Shown here: piece by piece, positions 41,407 through 63,612 of the stretch | How the letters are laid out: each line of letters opens with the position of its first letter | Position numbering within the stretch: the first letter of the stretch is position 1 | Source of the DNA: Planctomycetota bacterium | GTDB taxonomy: Bacteria > Planctomycetota > Planctomycetia > Gemmatales > Gemmataceae | Length of the DNA stretch: 64,000 bases | NCBI GenBank assembly: GCA_016873095.1 | Contig: VGYC01000002.1 | Span: 1 to 64,000 of the forward strand | Direction: 5' to 3' | Translations under genes and position numbers: made by a program | Notes under the pieces: generated by a model | What the model saw: the letters and a program-made list of their open reading frames with translations, nothing else | What the model was told of the DNA's origin: nothing | Databases searched by the model: none

Positions 41407-43308
41407 TCAAAACTCCTCCAGGTAAGTATACCCTTCCAGCCCGGACTCGTAGAAGCGCAACAGCTGCCGTGACTCGTTGAGAGTGATGTTGCCGGCGCGG
41501 ACGGCGCGCTCGACGTCCTTGCGCATGCGGGAAATGAGCTCGTCGGCAGAATACTGGACGTAAGCAAGGACTTCGCGGACGGTGTCGCCCTTGATGACGG
41601 CGTCGAGATTGAACTGGCCGGAGTCGTCAAGACTGACATGAACGGCGTTGGTGTCGCCGAAGAGGTTGTGCAGGTCGCCCAGAATCTCCTGGTAGGCGCC
41701 GAGCAAGAACGCGCCCAGGTAGTATGGCTGGCCGTTGTACGGGTGCAGTTGCAGCGTGCTGCGAACGTCGCGCAGGTCAATGAACTGATCGATCTTGCCG
41801 TCCGAGTCGCAGGTGATATCTCCCAGGACGGCGCGGCGCGTCGGCGGCTCGCTGAGCCGATGAATCGGCATGATCGGAAAGAGCTGGTTGATCGCCCAGC
41901 TATCCGGCATCGACTGGAAGATCGAGAAATTGCAGAAATACGTGTCCGAGAGGAAGGTCTCCAGCCCCTGGAGTTCCTCCGGGATGTAGTCCAGCTCGCG
42001 GACCATCTTCAGGACTTTGCCGCATACCGCCCAGAAGAGCCGCTCGGTCAGGGCACGCATCTCGATGCGCAGCGAGCCGAGATTGAACATGTTGAGCAAT
42101 TCGTCCATGGCCTGGACGGCGTCGTGATAGCCCTCGAGCAGGTTTTTTTTCGATAGATCGCGGTGAATGCCCTGGAGATCGAGGATCTGCTGCGGCGCAT
42201 CCTCGGGTATGTCGGGCGGCGCCTGGTAGCGGTCAAAGTTGGACACGCCGAGCACGTCGAAGACTAGCAAGCTATGGTAGGCGACGACGGCCCGGCCGGA
42301 CTCCGAGATGATGGTCGGATGCGGCACCTCGGCCTCGTCGCACACGCTCTTGATGCGGAAGACGACGTCGTTGGCGTATTCCTGGAGCGTGTAGTTGACG
42401 GATGATTCGAAATCGGTCTGCGAGCCGTCGTAGTCGATGCCCAGGCCGCCGCCGACATCGAGGTAGCGGACCCCGGCGCCGACGCGATGCAACTCAACGT
42501 AAACGCGGGCGGCTTCCGTCAAGGCTCCCTTGATGTTGCGGATGTTGGTGATCTGACTGCCCAGGTGAAAGTGAACCAGTTGCAGGCAGTCGGCCAGGTC
42601 GCGCTGCTTGAGATACTCGTAGGCCTCAAGGGTTTCGGTAAGTGTGAGCCCGAACTTGGAGCGGAAACCGGCGCTGTACTTCCAGCGTCCGGCCCCGCGT
42701 GCCGCCAGCTTGACGCGCACACCCAGGATCGGGCGGACGCTCAGTTCCTCGGCATTGCGGACGATGGTCTCCAGCTCGGTGAATTTCTCGACGACGGGGA
42801 TGACATGCTTGCCCATCTTGCGGGCCAGCACGGTCATCTTGATGAACTCGTCGTCCTTGAAGCCATTGCAGATGATCGGCGTGTCCATGCCGTTGGTCAG
42901 GGCAAGCACGGCCAGCAACTCCGGCTTGGAGCCGGCCTCGATGCCGAAGTGGTATGGCTTGCCGAAATCAAGGATTTCTTCGACGACGTGGCGTTGCTGG
43001 TTGACCTTGATCGGGTAGACGCAACAGTACGGGCCACGGTAGTCATTCTCCGCGATGGCGGTGCGGAACGCGTCGTGGATCTCGCCGACGCGCTGGCGCA
43101 AGATGTCCGTGAAGCGCAGCAGGATGGGCAACTGAATGCCGCGCTCTTGCAGCTGATCGATCAGTTCCTTGAGGTCGATGGCCTGCTCGGGCTTCTTGTC
43201 CGGATGCACGGTGACGTGTCCGGAGGCGTTGATGCCGAAGTAGCCCTTGCCCCAGTTGCGAACGCCATAGGTCTCGGCGGCGTCCTGCACCTTCCACTTC
43301 TCCATCAT
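41407..43308 (-). CDS. speA: Biosynthetic arginine decarboxylase
   Basis: About 633 residues. PLP fold-III enzyme converting arginine to agmatine for polyamine synthesis. Seen: YPIKVNQQRHVVEEIL with the PLP Lys, FHLGSQITNIRNIKGALTEAARVYVEL, YLDVGGGLGIDYDGSQTDF, ESGRAVVAYHSLLVFDVLG, and late LPIMPIHRL and DITCDSDGKID with the substrate-side residues. The frame is open to a TTG at 43381, without SD; ATG 43308 fits the family start (EKWKVQDAAETYGVRNWG). Confidence 0.93.
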   Translation of the reverse strand: MMEKWKVQDAAETYGVRNWGKGYFGINASGHVTVHPDKKPEQAIDLKELIDQLQERGIQLPILLRFTDILRQRVGEIHDAFRTAIAENDYRGPYCCVYPIKVNQQRHVVEEILDFGKPYHFGIEAGSKPELLAVLALTNGMDTPIICNGFKDDEFIKMTVLARKMGKHVIPVVEKFTELETIVRNAEELSVRPILGVRVKLAARGAGRWKYSAGFRSKFGLTLTETLEAYEYLKQRDLADCLQLVHFHLGSQITNIRNIKGALTEAARVYVELHRVGAGVRYLDVGGGLGIDYDGSQTDFESSVNYTLQEYANDVVFRIKSVCDEAEVPHPTIISESGRAVVAYHSLLVFDVLGVSNFDRYQAPPDIPEDAPQQILDLQGIHRDLSKKNLLEGYHDAVQAMDELLNMFNLGSLRIEMRALTERLFWAVCGKVLKMVRELDYIPEELQGLETFLSDTYFCNFSIFQSMPDSWAINQLFPIMPIHRLSEPPTRRAVLGDITCDSDGKIDQFIDLRDVRSTLQLHPYNGQPYYLGAFLLGAYQEILGDLHNLFGDTNAVHVSLDDSGQFNLDAVIKGDTVREVLAYVQYSADELISRMRKDVERAVRAGNITLNESRQLLRFYESGLEGYTYLEEF

Positions 43309-56796: not shown

Positions 56797-56849
56797 GTGC
56801 CGATGTTCCTCGCAGTTTCCAGGCTATCTTAGCGACCTAAACTATCTTG

Positions 56850-57533
56850 ATGTCCGCTCCCGCACAGGAAAGCATCTGGAAAGACCTTGGCCCCTCGATC
56901 GAGGAACGGGTCGCGGTCGGCACTCGCGAGCTGAGAATCTGCCGGCCGGCGGAATCGGAGCGGTTGCTCGATCATCCGGAGGTCCGCAAGGCGTTCGCGG
57001 CCGACGAGTACATGCCGTACTGGGCCGACCTGTGGCCGGCGGCGCGGATGCTGGCCGAGGCGATCCTGCACGAGCCGTGGCCGGCGGGACGCCAGGCCCT
57101 CGAGATCGGCTGCGGGCTGGGCCTGCCGGGCGTCGCGGCGCTGGCGGCCGGCCTGCGCGTCACCTTCAGCGACTACGATCCCTGCGCCCTGCACTTCGCC
57201 GCCGAGAATGCCCGGCTCAACGGCTTCCGCGACTTTGACACGCTTCGTCTCGACTGGCGGACGCCGCCGCCGGGACTGCAGGCCGGTATTCTCCTGGCCT
57301 CCGACCTGGTTTACGAAATCCGCAACGTTGCGCCCCTGGTGGCCTTCTTGAAGGTCGTCCTCGCTCCGGAAGGGCTTTGTCTGCTGACCGATCAGGACCG
57401 CGTGTCATCCAAGGCGCTGCGCGAGGCGCTGCAGGCCGGGGGACTCCCGTTCACGACCCGGACGATGTGGACGACCGGCCCCGACGGCCGCAAGCTCCGA
57501 GGCACTCTTTACCGCATCGCCCGAACAGGGTAA
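56850..57533 (+). CDS. Class I SAM-dependent methyltransferase (METTL/NNMT-like)
   Basis: 227 residues. MPYWADLWPAARMLAEAIL, SAM loop ALEIGCGLGLPGVAALAAG, TFSDYDPCALHFAAENARLNG, and ILLASDLVYE. Matches the lysine-methyltransferase/nicotinamide-N-methyltransferase-like group that modifies proteins or small molecules. ATG 56850 follows a TTG at 56847. Confidence 0.85.
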   Translation: MSAPAQESIWKDLGPSIEERVAVGTRELRICRPAESERLLDHPEVRKAFAADEYMPYWADLWPAARMLAEAILHEPWPAGRQALEIGCGLGLPGVAALAAGLRVTFSDYDPCALHFAAENARLNGFRDFDTLRLDWRTPPPGLQAGILLASDLVYEIRNVAPLVAFLKVVLAPEGLCLLTDQDRVSSKALREALQAGGLPFTTRTMWTTGPDGRKLRGTLYRIARTG

Positions 57534-57677: not shown

Positions 57678-58187
57678 ATGCGAATGTTCTGTTTGCTGAT
57701 GTGTGGTGTCGCCTTGCTGTCAATTCCCGCCCGCGCCCAGGACCCTGGCAAGCTCGACGTCAGCGTCGTCAAGTACGCCGGCCTGAAGGATGCGGTCGCC
57801 CGGAACCTCGGCAAGGTCGTGGTCGTGGATTTCTGGCGGATCACCTGAATCCCGTGCAAGAAGCATTTTCCGCATCTGGTCGAGATGCACAAGAAACATG
57901 CCAACGACGGCCTCGTCGTCGTGACCGTGACCCTGGACGAAGCCGGCGACAAGGAGTCCCGCGAGGGCATCCGCGCATTCCTGCGAAAGACGCAGGCGAA
58001 CTTCATCAACCTGCTGCTCGACGAGCCGCAGGAGGAATGGGAGAAAAAGCTCCGCTTCACCCTGCCGCCCTGCTACTTCGTCTTCAACCGCGCGGGCAAG
58101 TGGACGCAGTTTCGCAGCGAGGACGAGAACGGCGTGGATTACAAGGCCATGGACGCGCTGATCCTGGCGGAATTGCGGAACAAGTGA
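57678..58187 (+). CDS. Exported thioredoxin-like protein, probable selenoprotein (U-x-x-C)
   Basis: 169 residues when read through UGA at 57846-57848. ATG 57678 has GGAG six to seven bases before it. Signal peptide (MFCLLMCGVALLSIPARA), then KVVVVDFWRIT-U-IPCKKHFPHLVEMHKKH: the UGA sits at the first Cys of the C-x-x-C, residue 57, with Cys60 as partner. The frame continues unbroken to ...FVFNRAGKWTQF. The adjacent paralog (58201) has Cys here (FWSTSCIPC). A SECIS-like hairpin lies 23-40 nt downstream. Probably an exported thiol oxidoreductase. Upstream stop-to-stop reading gives two fragments, which is how it would be missed. Confidence 0.83.
57872..57888 (+). promoter_or_regulatory. Bacterial SECIS-like hairpin of the thioredoxin-like gene
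   Basis: GCATCTGGTCGAGATGC: perfect 6-bp stem, loop GGTCG. The loop starts 30 nt after the UGA and begins with G, within the published 16-37 nt bacterial window. The corresponding part of the Cys paralog has decayed pairing. Confidence 0.75.
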
Positions 58188-58200
58188 CGGAGGATGATGC

Positions 58201-58725
58201 ATGCGCATCGCGGCTTCACTGGTCAGCGCCATGGCGCTGCTTGCCGTTCCCGGCCAGTCGCAGCAACCCGGCAAGATCGACGTCCAGGTCGTCTCCTACG
58301 ACGGCCTGAAGGACCTCGTCCTCAAGAACCGCGGCAAGGTCGTGGTCGTCGATTTCTGGTCCACGAGTTGTATCCCGTGTCTGAAGAACATGCCCCACAT
58401 GGTCGAGATGCAACACCGCTTCGCCAAGGACGGGCTGGTGACCATCACCGTGAGCTGCGACAAGCTCGACGCCGACATCAAGACCGAAGCCGACCGAAAA
58501 CAGCTCGTCCTGGAGTCGTTGACCAGGAAAAAGGCTGACCTCGTCAACGTCATTCTCGACGAGAGCTGGAAACTTGCCGAGGACAAGCTGCGCATCTCGG
58601 CGCTGCCCGGTGTCTACGTTTTCAGCCGCGACGGCAAGTGGGTCCAGTTTGGCGGCCAGCAGGGCAAGGGCGTCGAGCCAGCCGCCGTCGAGAAGCTGGT
58701 CGTGCAGTTCCTGCAACAGAAGTAG
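58201..58725 (+). CDS. Exported thioredoxin-like protein, Cys form
   Basis: 174 residues, 13 bases after the Sec form and clearly its paralog: KIDVQVVSYDGLKDLVLKNRGKVVVVDFWSTSCIPCLKNMPHMVEM. Signal peptide (ASLVSAMALLAVPGQSQ). Intact CIPC redox pair and a thioredoxin-fold end VYVFSRDGKWVQFGG. It likely performs the same type of reaction without needing selenium. Confidence 0.87.
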   Translation: MRIAASLVSAMALLAVPGQSQQPGKIDVQVVSYDGLKDLVLKNRGKVVVVDFWSTSCIPCLKNMPHMVEMQHRFAKDGLVTITVSCDKLDADIKTEADRKQLVLESLTRKKADLVNVILDESWKLAEDKLRISALPGVYVFSRDGKWVQFGGQQGKGVEPAAVEKLVVQFLQQK

Positions 58726-58837: not shown

Positions 58838-59389
58838 TTGAGAGTCCCCGAAGAGAGCAAGCACCTGTATGCTGCCTTGGGCCGGGTGTTGGCATGCGCT
58901 CTCGCCTTGCTTTTGAACGTCACCGGACGATCACAGGCCCCGAACACCGTCAAGGTCGTCAAGCTTGACCGGCTCAAGCAAATTGTGCGACAGAACCGAG
59001 GCAGGGTTGTCGTGGTGTTCTTCTGGAATACCTGGAATGTCCCAGCCATTCATTGCCACCGGCAAGTACTTGATGGTTGTCGCAAGCATAAGAGTACGGA
59101 GCTTGTGGGCATCTCGGTTTGCACCGACCAGCTCAACAATGAAGTATCCGCGTCCGATCGCGAAACAGGTACCCTTGCTTTGCTGCAACGGCTGAGGTCG
59201 GACTTCACGAATCTGATTTTGGATGAGAAAGCAGATGTGCTTATCGATAAGCTGATTCCAATCGGCACGCCCTGCATGTATGTCTTCGACCGCCGCGGGA
59301 AATGGCATCGTTTCTCGACGGAAGAGGAATGGCCGGACTGGTCGCGGCTGGAAGAGTTGATCGTTGATCTCCTCAAGGAGAAACCGTGA
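58838..59389 (+). CDS. Thioredoxin-fold protein lacking the C-x-x-C pair
   Basis: 183 residues starting at TTG 58838 with GAGGAG five bases before it. The N-terminal 17 codons (LRVPEESKHLYAALGRV) copy the start of the flavin reductase gene, then a hydrophobic signal-like part (LACALALLLNVTGRSQA) and the paralog body: VKVVKLDRLKQIVRQNRGRVVVVFFWNTWNVPAIHCHRQVL. The redox pair reads N-V-P-A, so both Cys are lost; it is probably not a thiol oxidoreductase. The end overlaps the flavin reductase start (GTGA). Confidence 0.8.
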   Translation: MRVPEESKHLYAALGRVLACALALLLNVTGRSQAPNTVKVVKLDRLKQIVRQNRGRVVVVFFWNTWNVPAIHCHRQVLDGCRKHKSTELVGISVCTDQLNNEVSASDRETGTLALLQRLRSDFTNLILDEKADVLIDKLIPIGTPCMYVFDRRGKWHRFSTEEEWPDWSRLEELIVDLLKEKP

Positions 59390-59871
59390 AAGTTCCCGAA
59401 GAGAGCAAGCAACTCTACGCGGCGCTGGGCCGGGTGCCGAGCGGGCTGTTCGTGTTGACGATAGCGCGCAGCGATGTCGAGACGGGGATGCTGGCGAGCT
59501 GGGTGCAGCAGTGTTCCTTCGAGCCGCCGCTGTTGAGCGTGGCGATTCAGCGTGGTCGCGACATTTCCGCCCTGTTGACGGCCGGCGCCGTCTTCACGCT
59601 CAACATCCTCGACGACTCGCAGACCGACATGATCGCCCACTTCGGCAAAGGCCCCGCCAAGGGGGAGCCGATCTTCAACGGCCTGGAGGTGCTGCGCGGC
59701 GAAGGCAGCGGCCCAGTGCTGAACGAAGCCCTTGGATTCGTCAATTGCGTCGTGACCGGCAAGTTTCCCGCCGGCGACCATGACCTCGTCATCGCCCAGG
59801 TCATCGCCGGCCGGCTGCTCAACGACGGCCAGCCCATGGTGCACGTCCGCAAGAGCGCGTCGCACTATTGA
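59386..59871 (+). CDS. Flavin reductase domain protein
   Basis: 161 residues, start GTG 59386 with AAGGAG five bases before it. FMN-binding split-barrel/flavin reductase-like family: YAALGRVPSGLFVLTIARSDVETGMLASWVQQCSFEPPLLSVAIQRGRDISALLTAGAVFTLNIL. Reduces flavin with NAD(P)H, possibly for partner oxidoreductases. Translationally coupled to the third thioredoxin-like gene, which suggests a redox unit with the three paralogs. Confidence 0.87.
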   Translation: MKVPEESKQLYAALGRVPSGLFVLTIARSDVETGMLASWVQQCSFEPPLLSVAIQRGRDISALLTAGAVFTLNILDDSQTDMIAHFGKGPAKGEPIFNGLEVLRGEGSGPVLNEALGFVNCVVTGKFPAGDHDLVIAQVIAGRLLNDGQPMVHVRKSASHY

Positions 59872-62025: not shown

Positions 62026-63612
62026 TCACTTGAAAAAGGTCGAGATGGGACTGATCGGCGGCTTTGCGTGGATCGGAACGCCTCCGAACACAAAACCCTC
62101 CTTGCCTCCGGCCAGGTTCTCCATGTTCAGGGTATCGACCATGCTCGGGATCGCCTCGACGCCGAGACTTTCGAGCACGGCATGGCTCCAGCGATCCAGA
62201 CCATCACCAAAGCGGAACGAGTTGCGATAGACATCGAAGTTGAGGATGCCCTTGATGCGCTGCTGCCGCTGCAGCTCGACCGGCGTCCTGGGCCGCAGCG
62301 CCGCGCTGATGGCCGCGCGGAACAGCTTTTGATTGTTGGCGATGACCTCGCGCGTCAGCTCTTGCACGGCGGCGGGATCATCCGGCTGAAGCTGGGCCAG
62401 GGCGAGGCGAACGCTCACGCGCACCGAGCTTTGCAGCTCCACGTCCAGCGAGTCCTTGAGTGCCGGCAAGGACTTGCGGGCGTGTTCCGGGCCGATCTTG
62501 CCCAGTGCGATCGCGGCAGCGCTGCGAACCATCGGCACCGGGCTCTGGTATTGCTCGACAAGCGTGGGTACGGCTTCCTGGGCGGCCGGGCCGATCTCGC
62601 CAAGCGCGAAGATCGCAAACAGTCGCGTCGTCAGGTCGTCGCTGGGGACAGAGTTGATGAGGGCGTTGACGGCGGCCGGCCCGACCTTGACCACGGCCCG
62701 CGCCGCCTGGAAGCGTACCTCGTGCACCGGATCGCGGAACATCTTGACCAGGCTGCCGACCGAGGCGCCGCCGCTGCCGCTGACATTGCCCAGCGCCAGG
62801 GCGGCCGCGGCCCGGACGGACGGCTCGCGGTCCTTCGTCAAGCGCAGCAGGTCGTCGCTGCTGTCCCGGGCGACGGGACCGAAAGCGCCCAGCGTCAGGG
62901 TTGCCGCTCTCCGCGCCGCTGCATTCTTGTCGCCCAGCATTGCGGCAAGTTCCGGCAGAGCCTCCATGGCCTCGGCTCCGAGCAGGCCGAGGAGTTCGGC
63001 GGCCTGACGGCGTATTGCCGGACTGGACGCCTTCAGGGCGCCGCGCAAGGCCGGCATGGCTGCCCGCCCGATCCGTGCCAGGGCAGCGCGTGCCTGTGTC
63101 TTGACGTCCTTGCTCGAATCGTCGAGCAGCAGCGTCAACGAACCTGCTGTCCGAGCAGACGCCGGGCCGATCTCCGCAAGTGCGTGAGCGGCCATGGCGC
63201 GCACGCCGGCATCGGTCGATTTCAAGAGCCGCGCCAGGTCCGGCACGGCGGCGGCCGCATCCGGGCCGATGACCGCCAGGCTTTTCGCCGCGCGCCGGGC
63301 GTAGGCAAACTGAGGATTCTTCAACTCCGCGGCGAGGACCGGCACGGCGGCGGAGCCGATGCGGGCCAGCGCCCTGGCAGCCGCCTCGCGCACTTCCTCG
63401 TCGGTATCGTGCAGCGCCTTGCCCAGCGCAGAGCAGGCGTCGCGCGCCGCGGCGCCGGCCTGGCCAAGCGCCTGGGCGGCGCGCAGCCGCACGCGCGTGT
63501 ACTTGCTCTCCAGCTGCGTGAGCAGTCTGTCCTGCGGCACGGCCGCCGAGGCCGTGCCGGCCGCGCTCATCGCGCTGGCGCATAGCAGCAAGAAACTTGC
63601 GATAGGCTTCAC
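62026..63612 (-). CDS. Exported HEAT-repeat protein, upstream part
   Basis: 528 residues from GTG 63612, which has GGAGG six to seven bases before; longer starts to 63675 lack an SD. Signal peptide (PIASFLLLCASAMSAAGTASA), then about nine HEAT/PBS-lyase-like units of about 37 residues (DTDEEVREAAARALARIGSAAVPVL; DKNAAARRAATLTLGAFGPVARD; VPMVRSAAAIALGKIGPEHARKS). Ends VPIHAKPPISPISTFFK at UGA. It is a binding scaffold of unknown partner. See the adjoining part. Confidence 0.8.
   Translation of the reverse strand: MKPIASFLLLCASAMSAAGTASAAVPQDRLLTQLESKYTRVRLRAAQALGQAGAAARDACSALGKALHDTDEEVREAAARALARIGSAAVPVLAAELKNPQFAYARRAAKSLAVIGPDAAAAVPDLARLLKSTDAGVRAMAAHALAEIGPASARTAGSLTLLLDDSSKDVKTQARAALARIGRAAMPALRGALKASSPAIRRQAAELLGLLGAEAMEALPELAAMLGDKNAAARRAATLTLGAFGPVARDSSDDLLRLTKDREPSVRAAAALALGNVSGSGGASVGSLVKMFRDPVHEVRFQAARAVVKVGPAAVNALINSVPSDDLTTRLFAIFALGEIGPAAQEAVPTLVEQYQSPVPMVRSAAAIALGKIGPEHARKSLPALKDSLDVELQSSVRVSVRLALAQLQPDDPAAVQELTREVIANNQKLFRAAISAALRPRTPVELQRQQRIKGILNFDVYRNSFRFGDGLDRWSHAVLESLGVEAIPSMVDTLNMENLAGGKEGFVFGGVPIHAKPPISPISTFFK

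Follow-up and report, generated by a model that had tools for sequence, protein, structure and literature searches.

A probable UxxC selenoprotein gene in tandem with its cysteine and redox-dead thioredoxin-like paralogs in a Gemmataceae planctomycete

Introduction

Does an in-frame TGA at the active site of a thioredoxin-like protein end the chain, or is it read as selenocysteine (Sec)? The question is raised by a row of genes in the window, the whole 64,000-nucleotide stretch of planctomycete DNA analysed here, in which a gene with TGA in place of the first active-site cysteine codon is followed by a paralog with cysteine at this position. Genomes, contigs and loci are cited below by our own handles (G, C and L numbers).

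Selenoproteins with the UxxC active site and a TlpA-like or Thioredoxin_8 domain have been listed under the name 'thiol-disulfide isomerase-like' from the survey of the Sargasso Sea onwards (PMC1088965, PMC9312934, PMC13188914). The same kind is assigned to PF13905 in PMC9312934 and to cd02966 in PMC13188914, and is named 'Trx-like 1' in the GOS metagenomes (PMC2398784). None of these accounts (PMC1088965, PMC2398784, PMC9312934, PMC13188914) mentions Planctomycetes or Verrucomicrobia as carriers of this family. Selenoproteins in two marine planctomycetes are reported by one study (PMC4807772), and our literature search for the family of the window in Planctomycetes found no paper.

Results

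Gene row and predicted fold

Three thioredoxin-like genes lie in tandem on the + strand of the window (Table 1). The product of the first has 169 residues including Sec57, and its frame reads MRMFCLL...VVVVDFWRIT-U-IPCKKHFPHLVEMHKK...LRNK, with the active-site stretch DFWRIT-U-IPCKK. The second gene starts 13 bases 3' of the first and has DFWSTS-C-IPCLK at the corresponding place. The initial annotation had described both the TGA in F-W-R-I-T-UGA-I-P-C and the downstream paralog with the aligned cysteine, and both descriptions hold. It missed the third paralog, where both active-site cysteines are lost (FFWNTW-N-VPAIH) and AAT stands at the Sec/Cys column.

At its N terminus (RVPEESKHLYAALGRV) this third paralog repeats the beginning of the flavin reductase encoded from 59386 (KVPEESKQLYAALGRV), with VPEESKxLYAALGRV shared by the two. 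The copied start suggests a scar of tandem duplication. In the branch to which the window belongs, most loci have the methyltransferase, the flavin reductase or both next to the thioredoxin gene, Sec or Cys alike.

Table 1. Coordinates of the genes and elements of the row within the window
Feature	Position	Strand	Basis
Putative methyltransferase, PF10294, conserved upstream neighbour	56847..57533	+	Pfam, synteny
Putative Sec-containing exported TlpA/ResA-like thioredoxin-fold protein	57678..58187	+	Translation, Pfam, AlphaFold2, Foldseek
In-frame TGA, probably read as selenocysteine, first UxxC position (UIPC)	57846..57848	+	Aligned column
Bacterial SECIS hairpin GCATCT-GGTCG-AGATGC	57872..57888	+	Fits published bSECIS model
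Cys paralog (CIPC; TGT at 58369-58371)	58201..58725	+	45% identical in genome search
Third thioredoxin-like paralog, no active-site Cys (N-V-P-A)	58838..59389	+	PF13905 below cut-off
Flavin-reductase-like protein, PF01613, conserved downstream neighbour	59386..59871	+	Pfam, synteny

The Sec protein of the window scores over the cut-offs of PF13905 (Thioredoxin_8), PF00578 (AhpC-TSA), PF08534 (Redoxin) and PF00085 (Thioredoxin). Its AlphaFold2 model (mean pLDDT 90.8) predicts a thioredoxin fold, with the C/U-x-x-C motif opening the first active-site helix, and is matched by Foldseek to ResA (2f9s, E 5e-8, probability 1.00), DsbE and related extracytoplasmic oxidoreductases. The N terminus resembles a signal peptide (stretch MRMFCLLMCGVALLSIPARAQ) and, judged by eye, looks cleavable at MRMFCLLMCGVALLSIPARA-Q. 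The window protein, the Cys paralog and the seven other members tested stay below the cut-off of every NCBIfam redoxin model, and the ResA/TlpA/StoA equivalogs give 34-38 bits against cut-offs of 170-230 (at best 38 of 210). Hence, automatic annotation probably cuts these proteins at the UGA.

UGA at the cysteine column of homologs

The window protein, with stops read through, was searched in the 95 genomes of its family, and the loci were aligned. The codon at the Sec column is TGA in 41 genes, TGC or TGT in 79 rows representing 77 distinct genes, and AAT in one, the third window paralog. The 41 UGA homologs have no in-frame stop besides that column and their frames continue beyond it, so that the homologs are not just truncated proteins, whereas truncated homologs alone would, by the initial annotation, have refuted its proposal.

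SECIS hairpin

The published bSECIS model comprises a stem of 4-16 bp and a loop of 3-9 nt with G in the first two loop positions, 16-37 nt from the UGA (PMC13188914). The hairpin of the window lies within these ranges: its 6-bp stem is formed by GCATCT (57872-57877) and AGATGC (57883-57888), the 5-nt loop GGTCG (57878-57882) carries G in the first two positions, the stem starts at the 24th base after the UGA and the loop is 29 nt after it. The hairpin is thus exactly where the initial annotation had placed it. The claim that the same region pairs poorly in the Cys paralog was borne out as well, with three of six stem pairs formed. The 81-nt stretch as a whole folds with ordinary stability (z -0.9), a measure which on a single sequence is weak evidence.

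Comparison of homologs is more telling. All six pairs (GCATCT/AGATGC, or the same with the outer pair reversed) are complete in 36 of the 41 UGA homologs versus 1 of the 77 Cys homologs. Because the stem overlaps the codons of an HLV[E/Q]M motif, conservation of the protein could mimic that of the RNA. This point was settled by shuffling the synonymous codons gene by gene: 33 full stems are observed in the UGA genes (n=38) with 6.7 expected, and one in the Cys genes (n=77) with 1.0 expected. The hairpin is under selection at the RNA level, and only in the UGA genes. The His codon CAT, needed for pairing, is used in 37 of 41 UGA and 7 of 37 Cys genes (p=9e-11, with the reservation that related genes are not independent counts). 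UGA genes without the standard full stem include L100-L102 and L112, with one mismatch each, and in L096 a codon insertion displaces the same hairpin by three bases.

L110 (G048:C337) has UGA although most genes of its branch have Cys, and its hairpin is quite another one, ACGGTGC-AGTT-GCACCGT, a hint that Sec originated there separately.

A second UGA-plus-hairpin case in the window, counted by the initial annotation as mutual support, was not established, nor is it needed. Two further in-frame TGA codons, at 62026-62028 (-) and 41407-41409 (-), have long coding-like frames on both sides (a HEAT-repeat-like protein; a frame of 658+227 codons), neither following a thioredoxin motif. Either may be the case that was meant.

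Exchange of Sec and Cys in the family

On a tree of 116 short proteins, with the Sec column masked, 15 U/C changes are needed compared with a mean of 32.7 for shuffled labels; 42 of the 113 inner branches are poorly supported, and at least eight of the changes are forced by well-supported branches. In L048/L053 (support 97) and L096/L137 (100), a Sec and a Cys gene are sisters and have the same flavin reductase downstream. The tandem pair of the window holds up, and eight other genomes have such a pair too (L039, L040, L041, L042, L045, L046, L047 and L094). The tandem members are the nearest relatives of each other in L045 (91) and L094 (83), thus such pairs originated at least twice. Exchange between Sec and Cys has taken place repeatedly in the family, in some cases in one conserved operon slot, and the tree gives no direction to these exchanges.

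Distribution of the UGA-plus-hairpin pattern

A DNA pattern combining the UGA, the UxxC spacing and the hairpin, TGA-N6-TGY-N14-S-CATCTGGTNNAGATG-S, was run over a collection of 84,980 genomes (257 Gb). It matches 64 contigs, with 0.6-0.9 expected by chance. All are Planctomycetota or Verrucomicrobiota as labelled in their records, and each match lies inside a thioredoxin-like frame with UxxC, with no apparent false match among them. The pattern leaves the outer pair free; it is G-C in 36 matches, C-G in 26 and G-G in 2 (covariation p=6e-16). At least four forms of the protein are represented among the matches: that of the window (Gemmataceae), a verrucomicrobial one with an extended C terminus, also present in the cultured Roseibacillus persicicus (L206), one from another planctomycete family with AFFKPG-U-GGC, and one of Phycisphaerales type (L188, L201). 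In an even draw of the phylum the pattern is found in the window's own genome and in five genomes of one other family.

Two pattern matches in viral contigs were rejected, being not thioredoxins and having the free outer base pair broken. The search of viral contigs gave no relative of the window protein, and that of plasmids gave distant TlpA proteins only.

The genome of the window has another thioredoxin/ResA-like gene with an in-frame TGA (L029 1420-1990 (-), C18:37820-38116, HFMAFG-U-INCVRNYPWY), which, from its sequence, is likely a further selenoprotein.

Selenium machinery and tRNA-Sec

Examination of the selenium machinery, whose lack would by the initial annotation have refuted the proposal, gave a divided answer for the window's genome. 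The protein genes are in place: selA and selB lie side by side on C81 and selD on C117, all intact and over curated cut-offs (571, 381 and 287 bits, respectively). Of the tRNA-Sec gene only two separate pieces are found, each on a contig of its own. With a relative's gene as the query, a 5' fragment of 40 nt is located at C6:70507-70546 (L232 2008-2047) and a 3' fragment, the last 18 nt, at C242:9228-9245 (L228 1501-1518). The contigs run on with other sequence for about 15 kb and about 1 kb. Beyond the 5' fragment there are a PLD-domain gene and, within 10 kb, a BrxA (BREX defence) gene. No intact tRNA-Sec was found in this assembly, which is 95.5% complete in 548 contigs, with RF01852, a loop pattern or the relative's tRNA-Sec as a DNA query; the loop pattern gave nothing, and the top RF01852 matches are tRNA-Ser and tRNA-Leu genes. 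An intron as the cause of the split was rejected, as the 3-kb stretch has no Rfam match.

Among the 95 family genomes selA is over the cut-off in 85 and strong matches of tRNA-Sec (RF01852) are present in most, and ARAGORN reports an intact tRNA-SeC(tca) in all 30 relatives' loci checked. Relatives also have tRNA-Cys(GCA) genes of 95-96 nt with a long, tRNA-Sec-like variable arm (L135 1753-1847 in G001:C12, L220 and L221). They resemble the selC* tRNA-Cys reported from four other phyla (PMC7609411), and the gene in L135 is about 82 nt past a match to a Cys-type thioredoxin gene.

Alternatives to selenocysteine decoding

A single TGA in one metagenome-assembled genome would look alike if it were an ordinary nonsense mutation, a sequencing error or the mark of a pseudogene. 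TGA at the identical column of 41 genes from many separate genomes, with open frames and no second in-frame stop, excludes error, pseudogene and chance, and the selected hairpin speaks against them as well; we treat this explanation as refuted, with practically no weight left to it. The UGA would be read through at a Cys position also if the host had a changed genetic code with UGA as a sense codon for Trp or Cys. However, the genes of the region terminate in TGA, including the first thioredoxin gene itself (58185-58187), thus TGA is also a stop here; in the family genes UGA is found at the U column only, and SelA and SelB are present. A changed code is likewise refuted and is extremely improbable.

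The split tRNA-Sec bears on a narrower alternative, that the family consists of true selenoproteins and this strain has recently lost the decoding: with tRNA-Sec broken by insertion or rearrangement, the product of the UGA gene would be cut short and its work would fall to the Cys paralog. The two separate fragments, each continuing into other sequence, and the island-like character of the BrxA and PLD-domain genes favour such a loss. Nevertheless, selA, selB and selD are intact, as are the UGA and its hairpin, and the same genome has the second UGA thioredoxin-like gene. G028 and G053 each show two strong tRNA-Sec matches, so that a second copy may be unassembled here, and, as the assembly is from a metagenome, contigs may plausibly have been mis-joined at a segment of the tRNA that other species have in identical form. 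The split may reflect either misassembly at the conserved tRNA, an island in the tRNA gene with a second copy left unassembled, or a recent loss. It lowers our confidence in decoding in this strain, not in the family, and we consider the loss rather unlikely.

Discussion

We suggest, with high confidence, that the first gene of the row is a true UxxC selenoprotein gene, decoded through SelB and the hairpin, within a Sec/Cys/redox-dead row and a family of repeated swaps. The suggestion is based on sequence comparison and structure prediction: UGA stands at the Cys column in 41 genes, the hairpin is selected only in UGA genes, SelA, SelB and SelD are intact, the gene neighbourhood is conserved, and the predicted fold is of the ResA/TlpA/DsbE type.

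In the proposed mechanism SelB, bound to the hairpin and carrying Sec-tRNA-Sec, would decode the UGA as selenocysteine. The product would be exported and act as a thiol:disulfide oxidoreductase of the TlpA/ResA type, with a selenolate as the attacking residue (U-I-P-C) and disulfide reductase activity. The neighbour gene would provide the sulfur version (C-I-P-C) and the third gene a redox-dead version, all within a conserved row of methyltransferase, thioredoxin(s) and flavin reductase. The Cys copy may serve as a selenium-independent partner or backup.

The window protein resembles ResA, TlpA and DsbE (CcmG) in predicted fold and in the predicted extracytoplasmic CxxC chemistry. However, unlike them, it has Sec for the first Cys, and its NCBIfam scores are far below the cut-off. 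The Sec-related redoxins WAxxUGC_long (NF041054) and SelL-related (NF040769) show weak similarity of about 20 bits, but their motif differs and their cut-offs, 300 and 120 bits, are far above this score. By description, the thiol-disulfide isomerase-like or Trx-like 1 proteins are closest in kind, sharing the UxxC active site, the Thioredoxin_8/TlpA-like domain, a bSECIS just past the UGA and many Cys homologs, whereas their descriptions include neither a Sec/Cys/dead tandem nor a setting between methyltransferase and flavin reductase genes. UxxC thioredoxin-like selenoproteins are thus already known, and the window gene is a well-supported addition to them. As far as the literature searched shows, the tandem row, the repeated swaps in one slot of the gene row and the group-specific hairpin are new.

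The helix motif HLV[E/Q]M, which lies behind the active site, can be coded (CAT CTG GTN NAG ATG) as the SECIS itself. It is possible, though on balance somewhat doubtful, that by this means thioredoxin-like proteins of Planctomycetota and Verrucomicrobiota exchange Cys for Sec, or Sec for Cys, through a single change of the Cys codon and a few synonymous changes. If true, the low barrier would explain both the many swaps and the near-identical hairpin in several thioredoxin subfamilies of two phyla.

Last, these genes can be retrieved from public genomes by the UGA-plus-hairpin pattern. The retention of selenium by some enzymes that also work with sulfur calls for an explanation. With Sec and Cys versions of one small protein as tandem neighbours in one genome and as sister genes in the corresponding gene row of related genomes (L048/L053, L096/L137), the effects of exchanging one atom, of the supply of selenium and of the hairpin may be compared with little else changed.
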